Shown here piece after piece: positions 1 through 15,631 of a stretch of 64,000 nt of DNA (within the stretch, counting starts at the first letter, position 1; each line of letters begins with the position of its first letter). This stretch comes from Muribaculaceae bacterium Zag1 (lineage in GTDB: Bacteria; Bacteroidota; Bacteroidia; Bacteroidales; Muribaculaceae). Under the pieces are notes generated by a model. The model was given only the letters and a program-made list of their open reading frames with translations, ran no database searches and had not been told where the DNA came from. Position numbers and translations under genes: made by a program. The stretch covers positions 51,530-115,529 of the forward strand of contig NWBJ01000136.1 of assembly GCA_002633115.1 (NCBI GenBank). Direction: 5' to 3'.

Positions 1-80
1 CAACTCACGGGATTTAGTTGGTTTTTAGGATTTACAAACTTCTTTCTAACCTGAAGGCTTCTCGCCATCGGGTCGGTTGG

Positions 81-129
81 CTATTGCTGGCGGAGGAGCC
101 AGGATTCTTCTAGGCGTTTGCGGAGGAGG
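81..129 (-). pseudogene. Relic of the last ~16 codons of an M1 aminopeptidase gene
   Basis: Minus strand reads LLRKRLEESWLLRQQ*, matching the C-terminus LLRKLLEESWILRQQ* of the intact gene ending at 10545. Confidence 0.75.
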
Positions 130-154
130 AAGCCTTGGGAAGGAAGATACTCTA

Positions 155-242
155 CACGTTTTTCGTGGGAAAAGATGGTGTGTAATCACATTTTTCGTGG
201 GAAAAGTGTGATAATATACACATTTTTCGTGGGAAAAGTGTG
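155..242. repeat. Three-unit direct repeat, 32-bp spacing, upstream of DUF4143 ATPase
   Basis: CAC(A/G)TTTTTCGTGGGAAAAG motif starts at 155, 187 and 219; each of the last two units is itself a near-inverted repeat. Confidence 0.85.
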
Positions 243-302
243 AATGGTTTGTAAATAAAGAAATTAATTTGTACTTTTGCGGTAAATAAAATTATCCTCT
301 AT

Positions 303-1601
303 ATGGACGAAAAGTATTTGCGTAGAGATATAATCGGCCCCCTTTTGGAATGGAAGGAGAGGCCAGACCGCAAGCCTCTGATTTTGGAAGGGGCTAGACA
401 GGTGGGAAAGACATGGGCGGTTGAACAATTCGCAAAAGAGCACTACCAAGATATCGCCTACATCAACTTTGAGGAAGAAAAAGCGTTGCGAGACATTTTC
501 AAGCAAGACTTTGACACGGAGCGGATTCTTCGCACCATTAGGGCTTTTACCAGTAGCCCATGCATCCCGGAGAAAACCCTTATTTTTCTGGATGAGATTC
601 AAGAGGCCGAGGGTGGGTTGACGGCACTAAAGTACTTCTGCGAGCGACAACGCGACCAGCATCTAATCGTTGCTGGTTCATTGCTCGGCATAGAGCTGCA
701 TAGGGGCACATCCTTTCCAGTAGGCAAGGTGAATTGGCTAAAAATGTATCCAATGTCCTTTTTTGAATTCCTTGAGGCCATGGACCAAACCTCACTGGCA
801 GAGGCTGTTAAAAATAAAGACTGGGACGTAGTGAAATTCGCCCACAACAAACTCATAGATTGGTTGAAACAATACTATGTGGTAGGAGGAATGCCTGAGG
901 TTGTGGCTAAATATGCACAAAAAGGCACTTTAGAACAAGTGCGCAAATTGCAAAACGATATCCTTAAGGATTATGAGAAGGATTTCTCAAAGCATGCTCC
1001 AAAAGAACTTGTGCCAAGGATTGAACAGATTTGGCATTCTTTGCCGCGCCAGCTGGCTCGGGAGAACAAGAAATTCCTGTTTGGCTTGGTAAAAGAGGGT
1101 GCTAGGGCGCGAGAATACGAACTTGCCCTAAAATGGTTGCAGGATTCTGGTTTGCTCTATCAAATTTTCAATGTGACTAAGCCAGGTCTCCCCTTGAAAT
1201 CCTATATCGATGACAAGGCATTTAAGATTTACACTCACGATGTGGGGCTGCTTGGAGCCTTAAGCGAACTTCCTCCACAAACCTTGCTCTATGGGTCTGA
1301 TATTTTTGTAGAGTTCAAAGGGGCACTTACCGAACAGTATGTGCTGCAGGAACTTATCCCTCACTACACCCCCTATTACTGGGCCAAGCCAAAATCAACA
1401 CAGGAAGTGGATTTCCTGGTTCAGAAAGAGAACTCCATCCTTCCCATAGAAGCCAAATCAGAGGAAAACCTAAAGGCTAAAAGCCTTAAGACTTTCATGG
1501 AGGAGCAGAAAATATCCCATGCTCTCAAACTCTCGACTAGACCCTACTGCTTGCAGCCAAATATCACCAATCTACCCCTCTACGCAGTATCAACCCTTTA
1601 G
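303..1601 (+). CDS. ATP-binding protein, AAA_14 + DUF4143
   Basis: 432 aa; Walker A EGARQVGKTW, Walker B LIFLDEIQE, C-terminal EVDFLVQ..ILPIEAKS nuclease-like motif. Confidence 0.9.
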   Translation: MDEKYLRRDIIGPLLEWKERPDRKPLILEGARQVGKTWAVEQFAKEHYQDIAYINFEEEKALRDIFKQDFDTERILRTIRAFTSSPCIPEKTLIFLDEIQEAEGGLTALKYFCERQRDQHLIVAGSLLGIELHRGTSFPVGKVNWLKMYPMSFFEFLEAMDQTSLAEAVKNKDWDVVKFAHNKLIDWLKQYYVVGGMPEVVAKYAQKGTLEQVRKLQNDILKDYEKDFSKHAPKELVPRIEQIWHSLPRQLARENKKFLFGLVKEGARAREYELALKWLQDSGLLYQIFNVTKPGLPLKSYIDDKAFKIYTHDVGLLGALSELPPQTLLYGSDIFVEFKGALTEQYVLQELIPHYTPYYWAKPKSTQEVDFLVQKENSILPIEAKSEENLKAKSLKTFMEEQKISHALKLSTRPYCLQPNITNLPLYAVSTL

Positions 1602-1757
1602 ATCACATCAATTACCTCAATGGGGTGATCAGCTTAGCCTAGATTTGAATTTCAATGATTAGAGAACGCCAGAACACTCGCCGCTCCCTATCATGGAGTT
1701 AAAGAAACTTTTTGGTATTAGGGATAAATTCCCACCAAAATATTTTCAAGGATCAGA

Positions 1758-1775
1758 AATAAATTGTAACTTTGC
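1758..1775 (+). promoter_or_regulatory. Bacteroidetes-type -7 promoter element (TAACTTTG)
   Basis: aaattgtaactttgcgg, ~310 nt upstream of the 2084 ORF. Confidence 0.5.
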
Positions 1776-1853
1776 GGTGTTGATGGTGCAGTGGGCGTTG
1801 CTCGATGCCAGTCAGCACTCGGATGGCAGAGGCTGTCCGAAACCTACATATCG

Positions 1854-2036
1854 AAAAGAAAGCGTCTATGCTTATCTTGTCAACTGAAACCTGAGAAATT
1901 TCTTGTACACAAGGACAAGCATAGTAGAATCCACGCATGTACGTATGTGCGTGGGCTACTATACCCACATCTGTGTACAAGGGCAATCTCAGGGCCTCAG
2001 TTGAAGGCGTGGCATAGCAGTCCACGCATTTCTTTT
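1854..2036 (+). ncRNA. Candidate structured 5' leader or small RNA (long nested stem-loop)
   Basis: Six nested complementary segments: 1854-1865/2024-2036, 1866-1871/2012-2017, 1880-1887/1997-2004, 1890-1896/1987-1993, 1902-1911/1972-1981, and 1922-1937/1948-1961. Confidence 0.55.
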
Positions 2037-2083
2037 GTATTATTGTTTTATAGCAGAGAGGGCTGCTTTGCAACTACCATCTT

Positions 2084-3739
2084 ATGAAGCCAAAAATTCT
2101 ACTCTGGGTTCTTGTTTTTTTCTTGATGCCCAAACTGGCAGGAGCCTCTATGGTATGGGTAGGCGAAACAACTCGCTGCGATGCCACATCATCTGTTATT
2201 GGATCTACGAGCGACATTTCTTGGTCAACCAATGGAGGATACTTTTCTCTTAGCGGCTCCGGGTTCTATCGTGATGTAAAAGTCACTCAATACTTTTCCG
2301 GCTCAGCCACTGTAACCTGTTCTTGGAAATATCGTCTCACATCGAGTAGCCAATGGACCTCGACCTCTAAAACTTGGACTTTCACTTGCAAAGATAATCC
2401 AGCCTCAGTTTCTCCATCTACTCTTTCTCTTAAGGTTGATGACTCTTACCAATTAAGTTACTCCCACACTTATACTAATAGTTATACCTCCGCAGCTAAT
2501 GCCTACTTTAGCACAAACAGCACTTGCGTAACCGTAACTTCAAATGGATATGTAACAGCCGTAAGCCCAGGTACCGCCTATGTAACCTTGTATTCAAAAA
2601 TTTCCGCAAACAGCCCATCGTGCTTAGTTACAGTCACTGAGGATTCTAGTGGTTCTGGTAATACTGGAAATGGAAACACCAATACTAATACTGAGAGCCC
2701 AGGTGAGGCCATAGACTTGGGCTTATCTGTACTATGGGCCTCTTGTAATGTTGGAGCATCAAATCCAGAGGAGTATGGAGATTTCTATGCTTGGGGAGAA
2801 ACCAAAACAAAAACAATCTATGACTTTGATCATTATGTTGTGGATGAAGACGGATGCTGGACAGAAAAAGATCCAATGTACGATAAAGAGTATGGTGTAA
2901 TTTGGCCAATAGAAGAGACCAAGTTTGATGTAGCCAATGTTAAATGGGGAAGTGGTTGGAGAATGCCAACAGTTCTTGAAATAGAAGAACTTAAAGACAA
3001 ATGTACATGGACTGTTAGCACTCAAAACAATGTGAAAGGATTAAAATTTAAAGGTCCCAATGAAAATACAATTTTCATTCCCTTTGCGGGTGGTTATGAC
3101 GGTTCGTATTATCATAGTGATGGTTCGCAGTTTGAATTATGGTGTTCAGATGTTGTTCAAAATACAAAACTAAAGTGCGCTTATTGTTTATCATATTATT
3201 CTCAAGGAAACCTTAATTTAGAGTACTCGAGGAGAAATTATGGATTAAGCATAAGACCAGTGAAAGACAACCCCCAAAATAATACAAGCAGATGGTTTGT
3301 TGAAATTGATTGGGAAACATCTCCAGAATATCAACTGAAGAAGACCGATAATAAGAAGGTGTTTGAACTGGAAAATGTTACTATTGAAAAGCGATGGTTT
3401 CGGATAGCTACTTGGGAAGGAGAAATTGCCTTGATACCCCAAAGTTATGATATTATTTACAATGATCCAATACCTCTTACTGTTGCTACAGCTAAATCAA
3501 GCCCAAGTTATTTTACTTTAGAAACTTCTCCACAAACCTTAAAAAAGATTATATTAGATTTAAATGAAATGACATTGACATTAATTCATGAAGAAAATAG
3601 TATAAATACTATTACAGTTGACAATGAGAATACTGTCCACTACTATAATTTACAAGGAATAGAAGTTCTCAATGTAATACCAAATATGATTTATATTAAG
3701 GTGGTGAATGGAGAACCTCAGAAAATAGTTTTCCATTGA
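2084..3739 (+). CDS. Secreted Ig-like (BIG2) / Fibrobacter-paralogous-domain (FISUMP-like) protein
   Basis: Signal peptide MKPKILLWVLVFFLMPKLAGA; BIG2-like region; AIDLGLSVLWASCNVGASNPEEYGDFYAWGET motif. Confidence 0.75.
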   Translation: MKPKILLWVLVFFLMPKLAGASMVWVGETTRCDATSSVIGSTSDISWSTNGGYFSLSGSGFYRDVKVTQYFSGSATVTCSWKYRLTSSSQWTSTSKTWTFTCKDNPASVSPSTLSLKVDDSYQLSYSHTYTNSYTSAANAYFSTNSTCVTVTSNGYVTAVSPGTAYVTLYSKISANSPSCLVTVTEDSSGSGNTGNGNTNTNTESPGEAIDLGLSVLWASCNVGASNPEEYGDFYAWGETKTKTIYDFDHYVVDEDGCWTEKDPMYDKEYGVIWPIEETKFDVANVKWGSGWRMPTVLEIEELKDKCTWTVSTQNNVKGLKFKGPNENTIFIPFAGGYDGSYYHSDGSQFELWCSDVVQNTKLKCAYCLSYYSQGNLNLEYSRRNYGLSIRPVKDNPQNNTSRWFVEIDWETSPEYQLKKTDNKKVFELENVTIEKRWFRIATWEGEIALIPQSYDIIYNDPIPLTVATAKSSPSYFTLETSPQTLKKIILDLNEMTLTLIHEENSINTITVDNENTVHYYNLQGIEVLNVIPNMIYIKVVNGEPQKIVFH

Positions 3740-3743
3740 GGCC

Positions 3744-3783
3744 CTCTAACTGTCTTGGGTTGATCAACCCAAGACGGTTAGAG
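3744..3783 (+). terminator. Near-perfect 40-nt palindrome downstream of the secreted protein gene
   Basis: CTCTAACTGTCTTGGGTTGATCAACCCAAGACGGTTAGAG, one mismatched pair. Confidence 0.65.
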
Positions 3784-3875
3784 TTCACTTAAAAGTTAAT
3801 TATTTTTCAACTTTGGATTGAAATACAAGAGGTTTGAGTGAGGGATAAATATAAATACTTTGAAGAAGACAGGAG

Positions 3876-4145
3876 ATGAAAAGCTTGGATTATACATTCG
3901 AAGAAATGCTGGCCGCAGTGCCTAAGGAGATACAAGAGGAAGTGAATCTTGAGTTTGATGTGTCCAATAGGGTATATCAGTTCATGCAGGCAAAAGGAAT
4001 CACCAAAAAGGAATTGGCTGGCGCATTGGGGAAACGTCCGAGCGAGATAACCAAATGGCTTAGCGGACAACACAATTTCACTCTTCGCACCATAGCCATG
4101 TTTACAGCCTTCTTTGGCCAGACTATAATCCAAACGATAAAATGA
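3876..4145 (+). CDS. XRE-family HTH protein, orphan antitoxin-like
   Basis: 89 aa; helix-turn-helix GITKKELAGALGKRPSEITKWLSGQHNFTLRTI; resembles the 54414-54698 antitoxin; no cognate toxin ORF adjacent. Confidence 0.75.
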   Translation: MKSLDYTFEEMLAAVPKEIQEEVNLEFDVSNRVYQFMQAKGITKKELAGALGKRPSEITKWLSGQHNFTLRTIAMFTAFFGQTIIQTIK

Positions 4146-4184
4146 GTATCGTTGAACTTGGGAATTAAACCTGTAAACCATCGT

Positions 4185-4231
4185 GAGTTGCGGCCAAATC
4201 GGTTAATTTTTAATCGATTTGGCCGCAACTC
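4185..4231. repeat. Dispersed palindrome, copy 1
   Basis: GAGTTGCGGCCAAATCGGTTAATTTTTAATCGATTTGGCCGCAACTC; second copy at 9306-9358. Confidence 0.85.
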
Positions 4232-4334
4232 AGGGTGTTTTATTAATTTTCAGGGATTTATATACTCCCTATTAAAGAAGGATTAATATCCTCCTCTATA
4301 AGTGTGGACATCTCTTACAGAATTTCACGAAACA

Positions 4335-4366
4335 TTTGTAAATTCGGATAAAAAGACTTAACTTTG
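4335..4366 (+). promoter_or_regulatory. Bacteroidetes promoter for the ATPase-HNH cassette
   Basis: TTTG at 4335-4338 and TAACTTTG at 4359-4366. Confidence 0.6.
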
Positions 4367-4370
4367 TACC

Positions 4371-5681
4371 ATGGATGAAATTAACGGTATGAAAATCCAA
4401 AAGATAAATATCAAGGACTTCAGATGCTTCGGTGAATTTTCCCTAAATCTCAAACCAGGCATAAACTTGCTGGTAGGCGACAACGCCTCTGGTAAGACAT
4501 CGCTGCTTAAGGCTTGCAAATATGCTATAAGCTGTTTCTTCAGCGGTTTCAGCGATGACAACACTGCATGGGTTTATCCCTTGACCAATGATTTTAGGCA
4601 ATCAGAGGTCGGTGGAGTCTTGTTACAAGAGAGACCTATAGAGATAGAATTCAGCCTATTGGGACTTGGTCTCCCCGATTCTCCACAATCTTTGGTAATG
4701 AAAAGCGTGAAAAACAGTCGCCCCTTGCTTACGCCACTTAAGGACCTTAAGCTAAATGCGACCAAGCTTAAGGAGGCATACACCAATGGCAATGGTCAGA
4801 CTGAGCCCCTACCTCTGATTGAATGTTTCACCACTGAGGATATTCATGTACGCCGCTCCATCAGCCAATCGAAATTCAAAGAGACTCGACAGAAGCCTTC
4901 TTTCGGGTATTACGAATGCTTGGAGGGCAATGGCTTCCTGCCATATTGGGAGAAGAGACTGCTAGTTCTCAAAGAGGAAGACCCTGGCAATCAGGAATTG
5001 GCAATTGTGACCGCCGCAATTGCCAAAGCGTTGGGCCCAGCTGGATGCGGAATAATTGATGGTATAGTGGTACGCCCCAATGCCGGGAAAGTTTGCTATA
5101 GGTTTACCGACGGGCGCATCGTCGATTCTGACAAGCTTTCAGATGGATATCGGCGTCTCGTCAACCTTGTAACCAACTTGGCCTTTAGATGCGCTATTCT
5201 CAATCGAGGCATCTACGGCTTGGAAGCTTGCCGGAATACACAGGGTGTAGCCATCATTGACGAAGTGGACTTGCATCTTCACCCATCGCTTCAGGCTCGG
5301 GTGCTCCCATCACTGACATTGGCATTTCCCAATCTGCAAATCATAGCAAGTTCGCACTCCCCCATGGTTATGTCAGGCGTTGAAACTACCGAGCGCGATC
5401 AAGTGCTTAAGCTCGATTATGTGCCCCCTGCCTATTCAGCCCAACCAATACGGACCTACGGAATGGATCTGTCTTCCATCTCAAGCTTATGGCTTGGTGT
5501 AGCCCCTCGCGAACAGTCGACGCAGCATCGGCTTGATCGCCTATATTCTCTACTGGACCAAGAGCGGTATGATGAATTGGCTATAGAGCTCGAAAGAGCA
5601 AAACGAGAATATGGGGATACGCTCCCTGAACTGGATCGTCTCCAGACTGAGTTGGACTTTGAGCGAGGATTAGAGAGATGA
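4371..5681 (+). CDS. AAA family ATPase (AAA_21/SMC-like, PtuA-like)
   Basis: INIKDFRCFGEFSLNL..LLVGDNASGKTSLLKA Walker A; signature LSDGYRRLVNL; Walker B VAIIDEVDLHLHPSLQ. Start may be the internal ATG at 4389 because the promoter ends at 4366. Confidence 0.85.
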   Translation: MDEINGMKIQKINIKDFRCFGEFSLNLKPGINLLVGDNASGKTSLLKACKYAISCFFSGFSDDNTAWVYPLTNDFRQSEVGGVLLQERPIEIEFSLLGLGLPDSPQSLVMKSVKNSRPLLTPLKDLKLNATKLKEAYTNGNGQTEPLPLIECFTTEDIHVRRSISQSKFKETRQKPSFGYYECLEGNGFLPYWEKRLLVLKEEDPGNQELAIVTAAIAKALGPAGCGIIDGIVVRPNAGKVCYRFTDGRIVDSDKLSDGYRRLVNLVTNLAFRCAILNRGIYGLEACRNTQGVAIIDEVDLHLHPSLQARVLPSLTLAFPNLQIIASSHSPMVMSGVETTERDQVLKLDYVPPAYSAQPIRTYGMDLSSISSLWLGVAPREQSTQHRLDRLYSLLDQERYDELAIELERAKREYGDTLPELDRLQTELDFERGLER

Positions 5682-6364
5682 AGCTAATCATAAAGGGTCA
5701 GGAACCCAAAGAATGGGTGGAACATCGTCTCACTCAGGGTGCAGTCTACGAGCCAATTCAACCGCTTCGAAACGCTCTGTATGGAGAACAGGGAGGAATT
5801 TGCGCCTACTGTATGCGCCGCCTACAAACCGAGCCAGACCTGGCTCATATCCAGACTAACCGCATTGAACATCTCAGTCCTCAAAGTACCGACTTAACGC
5901 ATACGATGGAGTATACCAATATGGTGATGTGTTGCAGTGGATGGTCACCATCAATTGAGACAAGGGACGAATGTCATTGCGACAATAATCGCGGCAACCA
6001 ACCACTTTCTCTATCTCCTCTCGACCCTAAAGTTATAGATTCTCTGAGTTATGGCAAAGATGGATCTTTAATCTCTAGCAACCTCCTATGGAATCAAGAG
6101 ATTAACACAATTCTCAACCTTAATAACAGGTGGTTAAAATCTGCGCGTTCACAGGTTAGAGAAGGTGTCATCAATAGCCTTAACCGTAAGATTAAGAATA
6201 AGATTAAGAATAAGAAAGGATCTAAAGATTGGACTGAAAAAATCTTGCGAGAAGAACTTCAATCCTGGGAAAAACGGGATGCCACTGGGCTTTTCAAGCC
6301 ATATTCTGGCATGGTCATCACCCTATTGAGAAAATACCTCAGAAAGGCCCAAAGCCAACGGTAA
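5678..6364 (+). CDS. TIGR02646-family HNH endonuclease (PtuB-like)
   Basis: ATGA overlap with the ATPase; GICAYCMRR..NRIEHLSPQS HNH/zinc motif. Confidence 0.8.
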   Translation: MKLIIKGQEPKEWVEHRLTQGAVYEPIQPLRNALYGEQGGICAYCMRRLQTEPDLAHIQTNRIEHLSPQSTDLTHTMEYTNMVMCCSGWSPSIETRDECHCDNNRGNQPLSLSPLDPKVIDSLSYGKDGSLISSNLLWNQEINTILNLNNRWLKSARSQVREGVINSLNRKIKNKIKNKKGSKDWTEKILREELQSWEKRDATGLFKPYSGMVITLLRKYLRKAQSQR

Positions 6365-6384
6365 ATCAGAGTCTCCAGATAAAA

Positions 6385-6615
6385 ATGCCAAGGATTTTTG
6401 AGAAGGTGGGAAACACATCAAATTCCGCTCCTTCCAATAACAGTAATTCCCAGTTATGTGGATTCTGCAATGGGATTACAGCCATAGCTTGCACTCGCTG
6501 CGGAGGTTGCGGTCAGGTCTACAAAATGAATTTTGGATGGGTGTGCTGCGACCAATGTCAGGGCGTTGGTAACATTACATGCCCCAGATGTCACGGCTCA
6601 GGGCGTGCCTACTAA
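6385..6615 (+). CDS. Small CxxC zinc-finger protein (DnaJ central-domain-like)
   Basis: 76 aa with repeated motifs CGFCNG, CTRCGGCG, CDQCQGVG, CPRCHGSG; starts 20 bp after the HNH gene. Confidence 0.65.
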   Translation: MPRIFEKVGNTSNSAPSNNSNSQLCGFCNGITAIACTRCGGCGQVYKMNFGWVCCDQCQGVGNITCPRCHGSGRAY

Positions 6616-6640
6616 CCCCGTATTCTCTTACTTTATTTCT

Positions 6641-6688
6641 CTCATCTTCCGTAAACTCCTTGAAGAATCCTGGCTCCTCCGTCAGCAA
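6641..6688 (+). pseudogene. Fragment of M1 aminopeptidase 3' end
   Basis: Plus strand reads LIFRKLLEESWLLRQQ, matching the C-terminus of the intact gene. Confidence 0.75.
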
Positions 6689-6689
6689 T

Positions 6690-7527
6690 TCAAAGGTCTT
6701 TTACTTCTTCGGAGGAGAGGCCGGTGTAGAGCATAATCTTTTCAATTGGCTCTCCGTTCTCTTTCATTATGCGGGCCATCTCTTTCTTGCTCTTGGCTTC
6801 GCCATGTGCCACGCCCTCAGCGTATGAGTCGTCGAGGGCTTCCTGCTCGTAGTAAACCGAGTCGAGGAAATCACGGTAGACCTTTTGCTCGGCCTTGGGC
6901 ATGGCGTCGTACTGGAGCCTGCTGCGCGCCTCGGGCAGCCCCGGCGCATCGTCGTCCTCGCCTATCTCGCCCGTCTTCAGGTAGTTCATCCACTGCTCCA
7001 GAGAGTTCTTGGTGACTTTCTTGTAGTCAAATTTTCCCACCCTCACCAGGTAGTAGACCGGGAAAATGTCTTCCGAAGAGAGGGTGATGAGAGTGTCCTG
7101 CTCGGTCTTGCGCTTGAAAGTGAATGTGTCGTGGGTGTGCACGCCCTTGAGCACCGCCTGGCCCTTGTACAGATAGTCCTTGCCTTGCAATCGGTCAATG
7201 CCGTAATCGGCGAAAGAGATGGTATAAGGGAGAAACGTATCGCCCTTGATGCGAAGGAATTTGGTGCCATCGGTAAGATAAGCCTTATATTCGCTGTGGG
7301 CGAAATCTACGTCGCCCATTATGTTGCCCTCGAAATAGAGGTTTGGATTCACGCACTACACATTCACCAACGCGCAAGGCGTGCCGTTGAGGTCCTTCCT
7401 GATCTTGTCCACAGTCAAGACATCCATGGTCAATTCCACAGATTTCACCGTCAGCTGCTGCGCGAAGCATAGCATGCAATAAAGGCAGGATTTGAGGAGC
7501 AAAAAGTATCTCACGACTAAATCTTTC
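6690..7527 (-). pseudogene. Chimera: N-terminus of a PEGA/SEL1-type secreted protein joined to the C-terminal ~165 aa of an Rpn-family PDDEXK protein
   Basis: From 7527 the minus strand reads MKDLVVRYFLLLKSCLYCMLCFAQQLTVKSVELTMDVLTVDKIRKDLNGTPCALVNV*CVNPNLYFEGNIMGDVDF..YGIDRLQ|GKDYLYKGQ.... The part after GK is nearly identical to 9463-9975. Confidence 0.75.
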
Positions 7528-7543
7528 ATTGCTTTATTCTGAA

Positions 7544-8893
7544 CTATTCTTCGAATTTTACACTGGGCAACATAAAGCCCAGATAGAGAGGGAGGGTAAG
7601 CATGGGGCCTTCTTGACCGATGTTGTAATCGCCGAGCTTGATGGCGTGACGCACATGGTACTTTTCAGGATGCTTGAGGATAGTCTTGGCGCTCTTGGCG
7701 TTGCCGGTCTGCGCTTTGCACTCAACCAATACGCATTCGCCCTGGATTCTCAACAAGAAATCCACCTCCAAGCCTGTTTCCTTATGATAGTAGTATAGCT
7801 TCTTTCCGCTTTTGCCAAGGAAGTCTGCCATAAGATTTTCGAAGATTGCACCTTTATAGGTGTGTAGGTTACCCATGAGAATATCAGCCTGGGTTTCATC
7901 CTCAAGCATGCTGATCAGCAACCCAATGTCGGCCATGTACACTTTATATTCCGAATCGATGGCATTTCCATCAAGGGGCAATTCTGTGATGCTGACATTG
8001 TAGGCACGCCTAATTATAGCGGCATCTTCAATCCACTGCACAGCCCCTGCGTAGCGAGCAGAGGTTGCTCCCGTGCGCACGATTGAGTACTGAAATTTCT
8101 TATACTCGCGCCTCAATTGTTTTGGTATAGAATCAAAGCTTTCTCTAATCTTAGATTTGAGCTCCTTCGGGGCATACTTCAGCATATCGTCGCGATAACC
8201 ATTGACAATGCCGCGCTGCGCAAGCAACACCTGATTCATCTGCTTTGTGTCAAGATAAATGTTCACCGCTTCAGGCATGCCCCCCACTATGAGGTATCGC
8301 AGCAGAAGCTCCTTCATGCGCAAGTGGATGGGCGTGGGCACAGGGATTCTATTCTCCAAATTATGCCTAAGCAGCTGGAATACTTCCTCTGATATTCCAT
8401 TGGCCCATAAGAACTCTTCAAAGTCAAGCGGATACATATCTATTTGTGTCTCATACCCTATGGGGATGGAGACGGGCTTGTCTTCATTGTAACCTGAGAC
8501 ACCGAGCAACGAGCCCGTGGCGATGACATCGTATCTGCCATCAATGCAGAAAAACTTGAGGGCTGTGCGAGCTTGGGGACATTCCTGAATCTCATCGAGA
8601 ATGATGCATGTCCTGCCTGGCACAAAGCGCGTGTTTATATCCAACATTGTGGACAGATACATTATGATGTCATCGATTTTGAGAGACCCCTCGAAGGCTC
8701 GGCATAGCTCAGGCTGCTCTATGAAATTTATGCCTACCACATATTCGTAATTGGCCTCGGCGAATGCCGTTGCTGAGAAAGTCTTGCCGCACTGGCGGCA
8801 TCCCTTGATCACAAGAGGCTTGTGTTTGGGCGTCATTTTCCACTCTTTGAGAGTATCTTCTATCTTTCTTCTAAGCATATTGTTGCTAATCAA
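7544..8893 (-). CDS. ATP-binding protein, AAA_14 + DUF4143
   Basis: 449 aa; KGCRQCGKTFSA Walker A; CIILDEIQECPQ; EVDFLLRIQGECVLVECKA. Confidence 0.9.
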   Translation of the reverse strand: MISNNMLRRKIEDTLKEWKMTPKHKPLVIKGCRQCGKTFSATAFAEANYEYVVGINFIEQPELCRAFEGSLKIDDIIMYLSTMLDINTRFVPGRTCIILDEIQECPQARTALKFFCIDGRYDVIATGSLLGVSGYNEDKPVSIPIGYETQIDMYPLDFEEFLWANGISEEVFQLLRHNLENRIPVPTPIHLRMKELLLRYLIVGGMPEAVNIYLDTKQMNQVLLAQRGIVNGYRDDMLKYAPKELKSKIRESFDSIPKQLRREYKKFQYSIVRTGATSARYAGAVQWIEDAAIIRRAYNVSITELPLDGNAIDSEYKVYMADIGLLISMLEDETQADILMGNLHTYKGAIFENLMADFLGKSGKKLYYYHKETGLEVDFLLRIQGECVLVECKAQTGNAKSAKTILKHPEKYHVRHAIKLGDYNIGQEGPMLTLPLYLGFMLPSVKFEE

Positions 8894-8898
8894 TGGTT

Positions 8899-8989
8899 TG
8901 TCGATTTTCCAACCGACTTTTATGGTAATTATGTAGATTTTATAAGCGACTTTCAGGACCTATATGTCGATTTTCCAACCCACTTTTGC
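8899..8989. repeat. Three-unit direct repeat, 33-bp spacing, upstream of the second DUF4143 ATPase
   Basis: TGTCGATTTTCCAACCGACTTT at 8899, degenerate TGTAGATTTTATAAGCGACTTT at 8932, TGTCGATTTTCCAACCCACTTT at 8965. Confidence 0.75.
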
Positions 8990-9006
8990 AAAGTTAGGGA
9001 TAAATC

Positions 9007-9300
9007 GTGAATTCACAAAATCAATTTGACAATTTTTCAGATGTAAATAGCGAAACTTACCGCACCCAGTGCGGCTCACTCACCGAGGCCCAAATCGGAC
9101 TGCTCCGCGCCATCGCCAATGGCGAGCCTCAGCTCTCCTCTGCCGAGACCATCCGCAAATATCGCCTCAGAAGCTCCGCCGCTGTCAACAAAAACAGGCT
9201 CTCGCTCCGCAACTCCGACCTTATCGACAATTCCTCCAAGGAAGGCTGGGCCTTTCTTGACCCCATATTCAAGGCCTGGTTCCGCCAAAATTACCTGTAA
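9007..9300 (+). pseudogene. C-terminal remnant of an AAA-type ATP-binding protein
   Basis: LTEAQIGLLRAIANGEPQLSSAETIRKYRL..WAFLDPIFKAWFRQNYL resembles the winged-helix C-terminus of Bacteroidetes ATPases; no ATPase domain upstream. Confidence 0.55.
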
Positions 9301-9305
9301 AACAT

Positions 9306-9358
9306 CGTGAGTTGCGGCCAAATCGATTAATTTTTAATCGATTTGGCCGCAATTCACG
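9306..9358. repeat. Dispersed palindrome, copy 2
   Basis: CGTGAGTTGCGGCCAAATCGATTAATTTTTAATCGATTTGGCCGCAATTCACG. Confidence 0.85.
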
Positions 9359-9462
9359 AAATTGAGAGTGATTTTCAAGGATTTACTAACTCCTTTTTTA
9401 TCTAACCAGATGGCGAGGAGCCATCGGGTCGGTTGGCTATTGCTGGCTCCTCCGTCAGCAGT

Positions 9463-10350
9463 TCAAAGGTCTTTTACTTCTTCGGAGGAGAGGCCGGTGT
9501 AGAGCATAATCTTTTCAATGGGCTCTCCGTTCTCTTTCATCATGCGGGCCATCTCTTTCTTGCTCTTCGCTTCGCCAAGAGCTTCGCCATGGGCCACGCC
9601 CTCAGCGTATGAGTCGTCGAGGGCTTCTTGCTCGTAGTAAACCGAGTCGAGGAAATCACGGTAGACCTTTTGCTCGGCCTTGGGCAGGGCGTCGTACTGG
9701 AGCCTGCTGCGCGCCTCGGGCAGCCCCGGCGCATCGTCGTCCTCGCCTATCTCGCCCGTCTTCAGGTAGTTCATCCACTGCTCCAGAGAGTTCTTGGTGA
9801 CTTTCTTGTAGTCAAATTTTCCCACCCTCACCAGGTAGTAGACCGGGAAAATGTCTTCCGAAGAGAGGGTGATGAGAGTGTCCTGCTCGGTCTTGCGCTT
9901 GAAAGTGAATGTGTCGTGGGTGTGCACGCCCTTGAGCACCGCCTGGCCCTTGTACAGATAGTCCTTGCCTTGGCCAAGGCCGAAATAAACAACCGATATT
10001 GTGTACACCTTGTGGATGTCCTTGTATGGATGGCCCAGGTCGACCTGCTCTTTCACGGTGTTGGCTGCCCCGAAGAGCATGCGCTCGATGAAGTCCATTT
10101 CCCTTATGGTCTGCACCTCGATTATCACCTTCTCGCCCTTGTCGTTGACCGCCCTTACGTCAACGCGGTTGAACTTCTGGTTGCTCTTCTCCTGGTTGCC
10201 CTCGCTCTCCTCAAGGCCAGTTATCTTCATGTTCTCGCCGGTGATGGCCGAGATAAAGCCCTCAAGGATAACAAAATTGGCCTTGTTGCGCAGTATGTGC
10301 TTGACCGCCCAGTCGAACCACACGTATTTCTTAACTTCTCTCTTAGCCAT
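9463..10350 (-). CDS. Rpn-family recombination-promoting nuclease / PD-(D/E)XK putative transposase
   Basis: 295 aa; YVWFDWAVKHILRNKANFVILEGFISAITGE.., RVDVRAVNDKGEKVIIEVQT, FIERMLFGAANTVKEQVDLGHPYKDIHKVYTISVVYF. Confidence 0.9.
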   Translation of the reverse strand: MAKREVKKYVWFDWAVKHILRNKANFVILEGFISAITGENMKITGLEESEGNQEKSNQKFNRVDVRAVNDKGEKVIIEVQTIREMDFIERMLFGAANTVKEQVDLGHPYKDIHKVYTISVVYFGLGQGKDYLYKGQAVLKGVHTHDTFTFKRKTEQDTLITLSSEDIFPVYYLVRVGKFDYKKVTKNSLEQWMNYLKTGEIGEDDDAPGLPEARSRLQYDALPKAEQKVYRDFLDSVYYEQEALDDSYAEGVAHGEALGEAKSKKEMARMMKENGEPIEKIMLYTGLSSEEVKDL

Positions 10351-10511
10351 AACTCAAACGCTTTAAATGGGTCACTTCGCAAAATTACCAATTTTCCCCC
10401 ACAAATCCAAATCCCCATCGGAAATTGTTTCTGAGGTTAGAATAAACCACGTTTTCTAAACTCAACGCCCTCTTCTCTTCGACATAATAGTCCAAACATA
10501 TAAGTCAAGAA

Positions 10512-10537
10512 AACCCGAAGGCGAGAAGCCTTCGGGT
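10512..10537 (-). terminator. Hairpin terminator of the M1 aminopeptidase gene
   Basis: aacccgaaggc-gagaa-gccttcgggtt. Confidence 0.75.
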
Positions 10538-10544
10538 TGGTTTG

Positions 10545-12896
10545 TTATTGCTGGCGGAGAATCCAGGACTCTTCGAGGAGTTTGCGGAGGAGGGGAGCGG
10601 GGAGGGTGGAGAGGGTTAGGTAATCATTGACGGCTTGGGCGGCTTGGGGGGAGGAGTGGCCAGAGAGGAGGGCGCGGAGCCATTGGGTGGGGAAGAAGAT
10701 GTCACCAGTGCGCTTTACCTCGGGGAGGAGCTCCAGGCCGAGGGGGAGGAAACGGTTGCTCTGCGGTTCGCGTGCCGGATGATTGAGCAGGGCAAGCATA
10801 GAGGCAGCCCATGGCTCGGTGCGGCGATTATTGGCATCCGCCAGGCTTAGCATCAGCGCATCCTGCTCATCAATCGATGGGGTGCAAGCTCGGCTCACAA
10901 AGTCAAACTCGGCGATGGCATCAGCATTGCTGAGACGCGCACGCTGCGCTGACAGAATCTCCTCAGTTTGCCCTGGCAGAATAATGGCCAAATGATAGGC
11001 CATAGCCATGAAATGGCGCTCGGTGAGCGACGGGTCAGAGCCATCCTGCCATATCGCAAAGATAGAATCCACCACTGACGGGGCCAGCGCATTGGTCGAC
11101 AGCCAGCGTACAGCCTTGGCGCGTTGCGCTGGCTCAGTGGCAGTAGCCTGCCATAGGGCTTCCTCAGCCTGGATGCGACCAGGGCCGCGCAATAATCCTA
11201 CCGATTTGGTGACCAAGTCCATAGGCATCAGTGCTGCGCTCTGGGACGAAAGTCCGCTAATCACATCAGATAACAATTGTGGCTCAGCCTTGCGGTCGCG
11301 ACACAGCGTCTCGTACAGGTTGCTCCAGGCAAGATAATGCTCGCGCTCTGAGTCAGTGGCATTGAGAGACTGGTCAATGCGCCTAAGCTTAGGCGAAAGT
11401 ATATGGCAAGCATAAGGCGCGCCAGCGATTGAATCAATAAATTGGGGAATCTCCGACCCACCGATTTGTTTGAAACTCTTCTCGCCCTTTACTGCGATGA
11501 CCGGCGCTCCGGCCTCATCGGCCCATACGTGACAGAACCCTTTGATATCCTTGCTGGGCGCATGGGCATCAAGGATATCAACCAAGTCGGACCATCGTGC
11601 ATTGCCATATTTGTAGCGCTGCAGATAGTCGCGCATGGCAGCGCGGAAAGCATCGCGACCCATCCGCTGCTCCACAGCGAGCATCATCATCGGGGCTTTG
11701 TCATATATTATATTGCCGTAAAGCAATCCAGCATCCTTAAGATTGACAAGCTCTTGACAGATAGGATGAGTGCCATCGGTGCGGTCGGTGTATAGGGCTG
11801 GAGTGCGATAAGTGCGCAAGAAATTGAGCGAAAGGGTCAAATCGTCGGGTGTATGGGCCATCGCCTTTTCAATTTTCTCGGCGAAATAATTAGCGAATAC
11901 CTCCTTGAGCCATACATCGTCGAACCACTGCATTGTCACGCAGTCGCCCCACCACAGATGGCTCACCTCGTGAGCGATTAGCTGTCGGCGATTGTGCAAT
12001 TCCTCCTCGGTAGGATTGGCTGGCAAGAAAATGCGCGAGGCATTAAGCTGTATGGCTCCGGGATGTTCCATGCCGCCAAACTGATACCCCGGCAGAAGCA
12101 CAAAGTTGACATTTGGGAAAGGGCACGGCATCCCGGTGTATGTCTCAATCCAACGGATGGCAAACTCAGCATCATCGGCCAAAGCGTCAATCTGTGCCAA
12201 ACGCTCAGGTTCGGTCTCGCGGCTATACACATTGATCAGCAAATCGTTGCGGGCAGCCAATGAATGAGTGTACTCTCCAGCTGCGAATGAGAATAGATAG
12301 GTGGGGATATGCTGCGCTGGCTCAAAGGTCACCACCTTGGTGCTGCGCCCCGAGCCGCACTCTTGGATGGGAGCTGGGCCCACTGCCTCCCAGTCGGCAG
12401 GGACTGTAAGAGTAAGCCTATACTCAGCCTTCAGGTCAGGCTGGTCAAAGCAGGGAAACACCGAGCGCGCTTTGTCGGGCACAAACAGCGTGTACATGTA
12501 ATCCTCGTTGCGATTGAGAGCATTGTCTGAGGATACAAACTTGACCGATATCGAGTTAGTCCCTACGCGCAGTGCATCCTCTGGGATAATGATATGCTCA
12601 TTTTGCCACTGCAACGGCCACGCTGAGCCATTGACAGTGATTATCGAATCCGCCTCCTCGCCGCAGTAATCAAGCTGCAACTCACCCAGGCCAGAGAGCG
12701 AGAATTCGAGCGTGAGAGCACCCTCGACTGGCTCGGCCAACTTTATAGGCACATTGAATGACAAGTCATAGACAACATCACTGATGCGTTGCGCCCTGTC
12801 TTGAGCCATCTCGCGCTCAACGCCCTCGATGGCTTCTGCACCATAAGTCCACAATCCTATGCAGCTCAGAGCGGCTGCCAACAGTATATTTTTCAT
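10545..12896 (-). CDS. M1 family metallopeptidase (aminopeptidase N-like)
   Basis: GGMEHPGAI and HEVSHLWWGDCVTMQWFDDVWLKEVFANYF (HExxH-x18-E). Confidence 0.95.
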   Translation of the reverse strand: MKNILLAAALSCIGLWTYGAEAIEGVEREMAQDRAQRISDVVYDLSFNVPIKLAEPVEGALTLEFSLSGLGELQLDYCGEEADSIITVNGSAWPLQWQNEHIIIPEDALRVGTNSISVKFVSSDNALNRNEDYMYTLFVPDKARSVFPCFDQPDLKAEYRLTLTVPADWEAVGPAPIQECGSGRSTKVVTFEPAQHIPTYLFSFAAGEYTHSLAARNDLLINVYSRETEPERLAQIDALADDAEFAIRWIETYTGMPCPFPNVNFVLLPGYQFGGMEHPGAIQLNASRIFLPANPTEEELHNRRQLIAHEVSHLWWGDCVTMQWFDDVWLKEVFANYFAEKIEKAMAHTPDDLTLSLNFLRTYRTPALYTDRTDGTHPICQELVNLKDAGLLYGNIIYDKAPMMMLAVEQRMGRDAFRAAMRDYLQRYKYGNARWSDLVDILDAHAPSKDIKGFCHVWADEAGAPVIAVKGEKSFKQIGGSEIPQFIDSIAGAPYACHILSPKLRRIDQSLNATDSEREHYLAWSNLYETLCRDRKAEPQLLSDVISGLSSQSAALMPMDLVTKSVGLLRGPGRIQAEEALWQATATEPAQRAKAVRWLSTNALAPSVVDSIFAIWQDGSDPSLTERHFMAMAYHLAIILPGQTEEILSAQRARLSNADAIAEFDFVSRACTPSIDEQDALMLSLADANNRRTEPWAASMLALLNHPAREPQSNRFLPLGLELLPEVKRTGDIFFPTQWLRALLSGHSSPQAAQAVNDYLTLSTLPAPLLRKLLEESWILRQQ

Positions 12897-15631
12897 TTTT
12901 CACTTTTCATTTTTGTTTCGCCTGTGGGCAACCCGGCGAGGTAAAGTCGCAGCGTGGTCTCCACCACGAGATAGTCAAACAGTTTGAAATCAGGATTGTA
13001 AGCGTAGCACGCTGGCTCATCTGGCGTAGGTACATAGACCGAAGCAAGAGATTCCTCGTCAAGCCCCTCCCAAGGTATCAAACAATTGTGCAGCTTGGTA
13101 AACTCATTGCAACCGTGCGCTTTGGCCTCGCCGTAGGGAGAATACCCCATCATCTCATGTGCGGCATTCCAACGAAGATGCTCGGTCTTGGCGAGGGTTG
13201 TCATCAGCTTCATCTCTGGGCTGTCGGGAGCCAAATCCTGATATGCCACCTTGCCTCCGTGATATAGGTCTCCACAGCGGCGCGAATCCAGATTCTTCAG
13301 AAACTTACAGGCAAAGTCATTGACATCGCCCATCTTTTGCTGCGCGAGAGTTCGTTCGAGCAAGCGCAGCTTTGTAGCGGCATGCAATGCGTTGGCCAAG
13401 TCTTGCGACTCAGAGCGGCGTAGCTTGCTCATATTCTTCCAAGTCGGCGAGGATTCCTCTGGCGGATTAATGATGAAGCGGACATTGCCGTCTTTGCTCT
13501 TGTCATACTCATGCGTCAACTCATCGGGCTTAAGCTTTCGGTAATACCCCATCAGGGTCAGTCGGCGTTGCTTCCAGTCGCCATTGTCAGACTCCCATCC
13601 CGGCTTTTGGCCCTCGCGATAGGTCTGGTAGTAGTCTATGGCCTGGCGTTGCAATCGGTCGTTGATGATCAGGTCGTAGGTGTAGATATCGGTCATCGAG
13701 CCGAAAGGCACAAGCACACGGTCGGCCGGAGCCGATGCGCCAAGCAGCATATTGTAATGGTCGGCTATGCTTTGCAGCAAAGCGGTGTTGGATTCGCCGT
13801 AGAGGCGCACATAGATCCTCAGCCCCTTGAGCGAAGCGCGTTTCCTCATACAGAGCTTCAACAACTCGATGCCGCAGTCCATATTGCGTTCGCTGTCACC
13901 AATGGCCACCACTGCGTAGTTGAGAGTTGGCGCAATCTTTTCGAGCAAATTATAATATTCTTGGCTGCCGGGAATATCCTTGAGCAGCTGGATATGCTCG
14001 GCTCCATCATTATTGGGTGAAAACACTGCCGGGGTAGAGGCGCGGAATTGCCCAGCGATATCATCCATCTCTTTGTCGATGGCGTAGGCGTAAAATGGAC
14101 TGCGCTTGGTCTCCTTATCATCGCTGCGGCTGTCGACAAAGGCGCTAAACTCATACAGAAAGCGCAGGGCATCCTGGCCCGTCTCGCCAAATCCAACTAT
14201 CAGGGCTGTGAAATCCGAGGCGGTAGTACCGGGCTTGTTGGGCGACAACTCAATCATATTGACCGGATGATGCTCGACATTCATTCTGAGCCAATCGATT
14301 GACAGGCGCGAATCATCAATCAGCTTAAGTGTGAGATTGGCCTTGGGCAGCGACTCCTCGAGCACACGCGATATGCTATCGGCGCGAGCCGAGTAGAAAA
14401 TCGTGGTCTCATATTCCTTGGCATCCATCGATGAGTCGTGGGCAAACTTAGTGGCCACTTTCACATTGTCCTGGCGGTCGGGACCAAGCAAGAATAGATA
14501 CAACTTGCTGCGGTTGTCCTTGCTGTCGGCATGGCCCAACTGCTCAAGCAGTTTGCCCACAGGCCTAAGACCCAAGCGCTCCCATATCGAACCCAGGGCA
14601 TCGGGCAGCTGAGCCACTGGCATATTGGCAACAGCGAGATAGGCGCCGGGGATAGCCTCGATGGCCTCGAATGTCTCGCGTCGATGGGTGAAGGCGTTGC
14701 CGATGGCCCCCATGCCGTCGGTCGATGATTCGCTGTTTGAGGCCAGGCTGTCGACAACGAATACTATGTTGGCTTTGGGGTCGCGCTTGTTGATGTCGCG
14801 AGCCAAAGCCGAGGAGGCTTGCGACAAGCCATAAAATATATACAGGTGATTATTGTCGGGGCGAATGCGCAGCGATTTAAGTCTGAGATATTGCTTTAGG
14901 CGGCTCACAAACAGGGCCACGAGCAAGAGGAAAGTCGATGCCGTTGCCGCCACTGTCAGGCCAGCTATCGCAGCGCGCATCACTGGCAATGCTCTGATGC
15001 TGTCAAACACATTGCCGTCAATGTTCATCACAAACATGCCCAAGGCGCACAGCGAGCCGCGCCAGTCGACCTCGGCACCGGTGGTGGCGCCCACGCTGAG
15101 GGCCATGCTGTAGACGAGCCATCCCCAAGCCCAAATCAGAGCCATCGAGCTGCACAGCAGCGCTGCGGGCGTTTGCGGAGTGCGGCGCGGGCCCAGCCAA
15201 CGCCACAAAGTGACGATGAAGGACAAGAGCGCCGTGTTGAGGGCAAAAATAGGCAGAGCGTTCCAAAAATCGCCGAGGCGGGGGTTATAGAAGGCAATAT
15301 CGGCCCCAAACAAAATGCAAGCAATCAGCACCAAGATGATGAATATAGTTTGGCCCTTGGAGCGCCCTAAGCTCCAAGCCATAGCGCGGAATCGACCGCT
15401 CAGATACAGGGCTAAGGCGATAAGCAGCCCTATGGCGTAAGGGTCGTCAAATCCGTTAGCTGCCGGACATTCGGCCCACACGGCCGAGGCTTGAATCATT
15501 TCGGGCGTGTCCGCGCCAATCCACAGCAGTGCAGTCAGCGCTGGCCATAATGGAGTGAATATCCACAGATAGCAGAACGCAGCTATCACAGTATCGGCGC
15601 AGATACGGAGAATGGTTTTAAGGTTTGGCAT
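12893..15631 (-). CDS. Large membrane protein with Rossmann-like domains and a C-terminal RyR-like domain
   Basis: N-terminal TM helices; ALIVGFGETGQDALRFLYEF Rossmann-like motif; LAKTEHLRWNAAHEMMGYSPYG..HNCLIPWEGL RyR-like; 4-bp overlap with the M1 gene. Confidence 0.6.
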   Translation of the reverse strand: MPNLKTILRICADTVIAAFCYLWIFTPLWPALTALLWIGADTPEMIQASAVWAECPAANGFDDPYAIGLLIALALYLSGRFRAMAWSLGRSKGQTIFIILVLIACILFGADIAFYNPRLGDFWNALPIFALNTALLSFIVTLWRWLGPRRTPQTPAALLCSSMALIWAWGWLVYSMALSVGATTGAEVDWRGSLCALGMFVMNIDGNVFDSIRALPVMRAAIAGLTVAATASTFLLLVALFVSRLKQYLRLKSLRIRPDNNHLYIFYGLSQASSALARDINKRDPKANIVFVVDSLASNSESSTDGMGAIGNAFTHRRETFEAIEAIPGAYLAVANMPVAQLPDALGSIWERLGLRPVGKLLEQLGHADSKDNRSKLYLFLLGPDRQDNVKVATKFAHDSSMDAKEYETTIFYSARADSISRVLEESLPKANLTLKLIDDSRLSIDWLRMNVEHHPVNMIELSPNKPGTTASDFTALIVGFGETGQDALRFLYEFSAFVDSRSDDKETKRSPFYAYAIDKEMDDIAGQFRASTPAVFSPNNDGAEHIQLLKDIPGSQEYYNLLEKIAPTLNYAVVAIGDSERNMDCGIELLKLCMRKRASLKGLRIYVRLYGESNTALLQSIADHYNMLLGASAPADRVLVPFGSMTDIYTYDLIINDRLQRQAIDYYQTYREGQKPGWESDNGDWKQRRLTLMGYYRKLKPDELTHEYDKSKDGNVRFIINPPEESSPTWKNMSKLRRSESQDLANALHAATKLRLLERTLAQQKMGDVNDFACKFLKNLDSRRCGDLYHGGKVAYQDLAPDSPEMKLMTTLAKTEHLRWNAAHEMMGYSPYGEAKAHGCNEFTKLHNCLIPWEGLDEESLASVYVPTPDEPACYAYNPDFKLFDYLVVETTLRLYLAGLPTGETKMKSEK

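Follow-up and report, generated by a model that had tools for sequence, protein, structure and literature searches.

A stretch of 64,000 nucleotides from Muribaculaceae bacterium Zag1, hereafter the window, carries three consecutive genes for an ATPase, an HNH nuclease and a small CxxC protein, which raises the question of whether the three form a new defence system or whether a known pair is followed by an unrelated gene. The reading we prefer, with a probability of about 85%, is a two-gene stand-alone Septu module in a plastic Bacteroidales defence hot spot, together with a probably co-transcribed CxxC passenger. It rests on family membership, intact catalytic residues, conservation of the pair, absence of the CxxC gene elsewhere and a single gain/loss unit.

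Layout of the locus and identity of the ptuA-ptuB pair

All three genes lie on the + strand: ptuA (4371-5681; 436 aa) encodes an OLD/Rad50-like ABC-type ATPase of Septu, ptuB (5678-6364; 228 aa) an HNH nuclease of Septu, and the third gene (6385-6615) the CxxC protein of 76 aa. The overlap between ptuA and ptuB is 4 bp (ATGA), and 20 bp separate the ptuB stop from the CxxC gene; when the coordinates were rechecked, the three reading frames, the overlap and the gap were all found where the first-pass annotation had put them. That annotation had also placed a promoter at 4335-4366. A Bacteroidota-type promoter of the form TTTG-N20-TAACTTTG indeed matches there on the + strand, as judged from its position relative to ptuA and from the enrichment of the pattern TTTG...TAnnTTTG in the 64-kb window (10 observed versus 0.88 expected), but its -7 box is too near the ATG at 4371 that had been assigned to ptuA. 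Because the end of this box is only 4 nt from that ATG, and because relatives and most profile matches of PtuA begin at residue 7-10, the true start of PtuA is probably M7 at 4389.

The pair had initially been called Septu (PtuA-PtuB), with HMM searches suggested as a check. Run with the PADLOC models, these searches placed the pair in that already defined system, with strong matches of PtuA to the PtuA model PDLC00272 (E=9e-153, 507 bits) and of PtuB to the PtuB model PDLC00322 (E=9e-54, 181 bits). Matches of PtuB to NF041761 and TIGR02646 were below the cut-off, the latter just under it (score 48.8, cut-off 52.15). The best structure match of PtuA was Septu PtuA (PDB 8ee4), and a five-sequence PtuB profile matched PtuB of PDB 8ee7 as well as retron PtuB chains; a structure prediction for PtuB with five sequences was uninformative (pLDDT 52).

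The catalytic residues are intact in both proteins. In the 16 aligned pairs, the Walker A lysine K42, the Walker B residues D297/E298 and H329 of PtuA are conserved throughout (16/16), as are H65, N81, C86 and C101 of PtuB, which include the H/N catalytic residues and zinc cysteines of the nuclease, with C42/C45 present in 15 of the 16. The two genes are adjacent or overlapping in nearly all of these pairs, so that the two-gene operon is kept in relatives. The spacing between H65 and N81 is 16 residues, the same as between H75 and N91 of Septu EcB88, in which immunity is lost when the PtuA Walker motifs or the PtuB H/N motifs are substituted (PMC13096335). With E. coli PtuAB (8ee4/8ee7) and Septu EcB88 the present locus shares the two-gene operon of an ABC-type ATPase and an HNH nuclease, the length class, the catalytic motifs and the gene overlap, whereas it differs in its remote sequence and in the extra orphan gene behind the pair. 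By these sequence features, ptuA-ptuB is a canonical two-gene Septu (PtuA1/PtuB1) pair, a known system and not a new three-gene one, and it adds one Septu locus from Bacteroidales.

A repeat-bounded gain/loss unit in a defence hot spot

The closest species (G168, about 91% DNA identity) carries related repeats, an orphan HTH gene and an Rpn gene in the corresponding slot, which extends from the M1 aminopeptidase gene (10545-12896) to a gene for a 329-aa protein, and ptuAB is absent from it. What this slot lacks is exactly 4261-6638, that is, the promoter, ptuA, ptuB and the CxxC gene, for which blastn of our locus against it (L089) found no DNA counterpart. The stretch is bounded on its left by a hairpin with a near-perfect inverted repeat (4169-4242), the likely terminator of the HTH gene, and on its right by a REP-like repeat (6642-6689) that runs into a truncated copy of an Rpn-family gene. 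Because 4261-6638 has no counterpart in the closest species, the three genes were gained or lost together as one unit, which shows that ptuAB moves within a hot spot as a unit bounded by repeats.

Two AAA ATPases in the window, at 303-1601 (1e-178) and 7544-8893 (4e-146), match the PADLOC candidate defence model PDC-S01, and the HTH gene (3876-4145) matches PDC-M64C and has no obvious toxin partner. Because of these PDC-S01 ATPases and this PDC-M64C-like HTH gene, we regard the locus as a defence hot spot. The HTH homologue is inverted in the closest species. The 64 nt of the hairpin occur near-identically in only two intact copies in the genome (4169-4242 and 9293-9359), which lie 5.1 kb apart in the same orientation, and similar hairpins flank the cargo in the slot of the sister species. 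The REP-like repeat is found at 83-130, 6642-6689 and 10545-10593; it overlaps the aminopeptidase gene at its 3' end and is seen again at the edges of modules. The Rpn-family nuclease gene is present in two copies, at 6670-7352 (without its 5' part) and 9443-10350. To the left of base 1 of the window, a run of N (an assembly gap) adjoins a further hairpin-like end, which leaves the left flank incomplete.

The CxxC gene behind ptuB

The 76-aa protein carries CxxCxG motifs at residues 25, 36, 55 and 66, and the four motifs described at first pass are not a matter of composition, as none of 200,000 shuffles of the protein's own residues reached four. The Pfam model DnaJ_CXXCXGXG matched weakly (E=0.08), and the DnaJ cysteine-rich domain PF00684 scored 13.6 bits against a gathering cut-off of 32.7. 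The protein thus has four repeats of the CxxCxGxG type in common with DnaJ cysteine-rich or BSD2-like stand-alone domains, from which it differs by its marginal profile scores and the partial loss of the glycines. A single-sequence structure prediction was unreliable (pLDDT 54), and a codon-usage likelihood did not separate the frame from other frames. No terminator-like site was found between ptuB and the CxxC gene, which is probably read from the same promoter as ptuAB.

Searches for relatives returned parts of larger proteins, with 33-41% identity to the C-terminal domains of larger Bacteroidota proteins. Among 297 family genomes, the sequence itself found distant matches only (best 39-41%), mostly C-terminal in larger predicted proteins, and a four-row CxxC profile run over 345 class-level genomes picked up DnaJ-like frames along with larger Cys-rich proteins. 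Across these searches, which covered roughly 600 Bacteroidota genomes, there was neither a stand-alone homologue nor a second case beside ptuAB; viral contigs and plasmids held no relatives. The ptuAB pair, by comparison, stays together in about 17 relatives with 25-48% identity (11 of the same family, five designated L017-L021, of which some have short flanks, and, from other families, L045 and L091). None of these carries a small CxxC-rich gene after ptuB or a match to the 76-aa query. Because no ptuAB locus among these carries one and no stand-alone homologue was found, the CxxC gene is, on the genomes searched, an orphan by sequence, with the reservation that the closest PtuA found has about 48% identity, so that an association of recent origin may have escaped the search.

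We infer from this distribution that the CxxC gene is most likely dispensable for Septu. It would be a passenger that the ptuAB cassette acquired or that was left behind in it: a zinc-knuckle domain, standing alone, that is read from the ptuAB promoter and that Septu does not require in order to act. A narrower version of this reading, which we consider possible and hold only tentatively, is that the frame is the detached C-terminal cysteine-rich remnant of a larger Bacteroidota surface protein or lipoprotein and that recombination at the repeats brought it in. The best relatives (39-41%) are indeed parts of frames of 200-475 residues, several of which have repeat domains ahead of their Cys-rich end, and the alignment with two of them (L023 and L026) extends into an upstream GNTSxS stretch. 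The frame, however, begins with an ATG of its own, its four-motif domain is complete and uninterrupted by a stop, and a DNA search of its own genome found no second copy of the region.

The first-pass annotation had raised the CxxC protein as a third Septu component and had proposed to look for its co-occurrence with the ATPase-HNH pair; it had also named, as findings that would speak against a new system, a CxxC gene present beside the pair only here and a pair that falls into a defined system. On the available data both largely apply, with 0 of the about 17 other loci carrying the gene, and a three-gene Septu variant with a recurrent CxxC link is not supported on this count. One gain/loss unit for three genes nevertheless leaves room, without proof, for a lineage-specific accessory role. 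The protein, moving with ptuAB as one cassette, would then be a third subunit or regulator in a young Septu variant; it might, for instance, be a sensor that binds nucleic acids or a factor that keeps PtuAB toxicity in check. Its position on the same strand 20 bp behind ptuB, the shared repeat-flanked unit, the intact four-motif zinc-knuckle pattern and the lack of a terminator-like site after ptuB are what such an accessory would look like. We nevertheless consider this improbable, since the relatives endure as a conserved pair without the gene and the downstream neighbour of ptuB varies from locus to locus and is unrelated, except at the two BREX loci (L045 and L091). Attractive as it is, the third gene is not a conserved component of Septu; if it proved functional, it would represent a new way to control PtuAB, whose trigger is still unsettled.

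Related PtuAB systems and expected action

An origin of the pair as a retron I-A effector whose RT and msDNA were lost or separated is very improbable, because the nearest RT of the genome is on another contig. Such retrons do use PtuAB as their effector pair, and the Ec78/Ec83 (Eco7/Eco4) effectors belong to the same two protein families; the NCBIfam retron-specific PtuA and PtuB models also match, all below threshold. PtuA here is, however, shorter (436 aa versus about 550 aa in retron PtuA chains) and matches the retron I-A ATPase model far less well than the Septu model (2e-45, 154 bits versus 507 bits). The absence of a reverse transcriptase noted at first pass was borne out: there is none on the contig of the locus (C136), and the RT-like matches of the genome are confined to contigs C62 and C10. 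No retron ncRNA was found by Rfam in window positions 1-14000, and neither an RT nor a retron ncRNA was seen among the inspected neighbours of close ptuAB relatives. Neither an RT nor an msr-msd RNA stands next to ptuAB, and retron type I-A membership was rejected.

PtuAB systems are subject to nucleotide control. By analogy with studied Septu/PtuAB systems, PtuA would oligomerise and its nucleotide state would hold the PtuB HNH nuclease inactive until infection releases it; freed PtuB would then cut DNA or a tRNA, and phage production would stop. For the present Septu pair we infer this general mode of action from published PtuAB systems, in which the motifs of the ATPase and those of the nuclease are both required and which differ in their targets (PMC13096335, PMC11555353). 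Septu EcB88 cuts tRNA-Tyr (PMC13096335), the same tRNA is depleted by the PtuAB of retron-Eco7, and DNA was the reported target of another Septu (PMC11555353).

Same-clade ptuAB pairs with 45-48% identity are located between brxC and pglX in two BREX operons (L045:858-4226 and L091:105-4251). OLD-ABC/HNH dyads have been described in BREX loci (PMC12839542); the present locus differs in that no BREX gene was seen adjoining it. Viral contigs contained no relatives of PtuA; a single weak match came from a Pseudomonas phage. In one locus (L042:5531-7144, genome G020), ptuB is represented by a short frame of 81 aa, with 43 matched, that is possibly a decayed copy.
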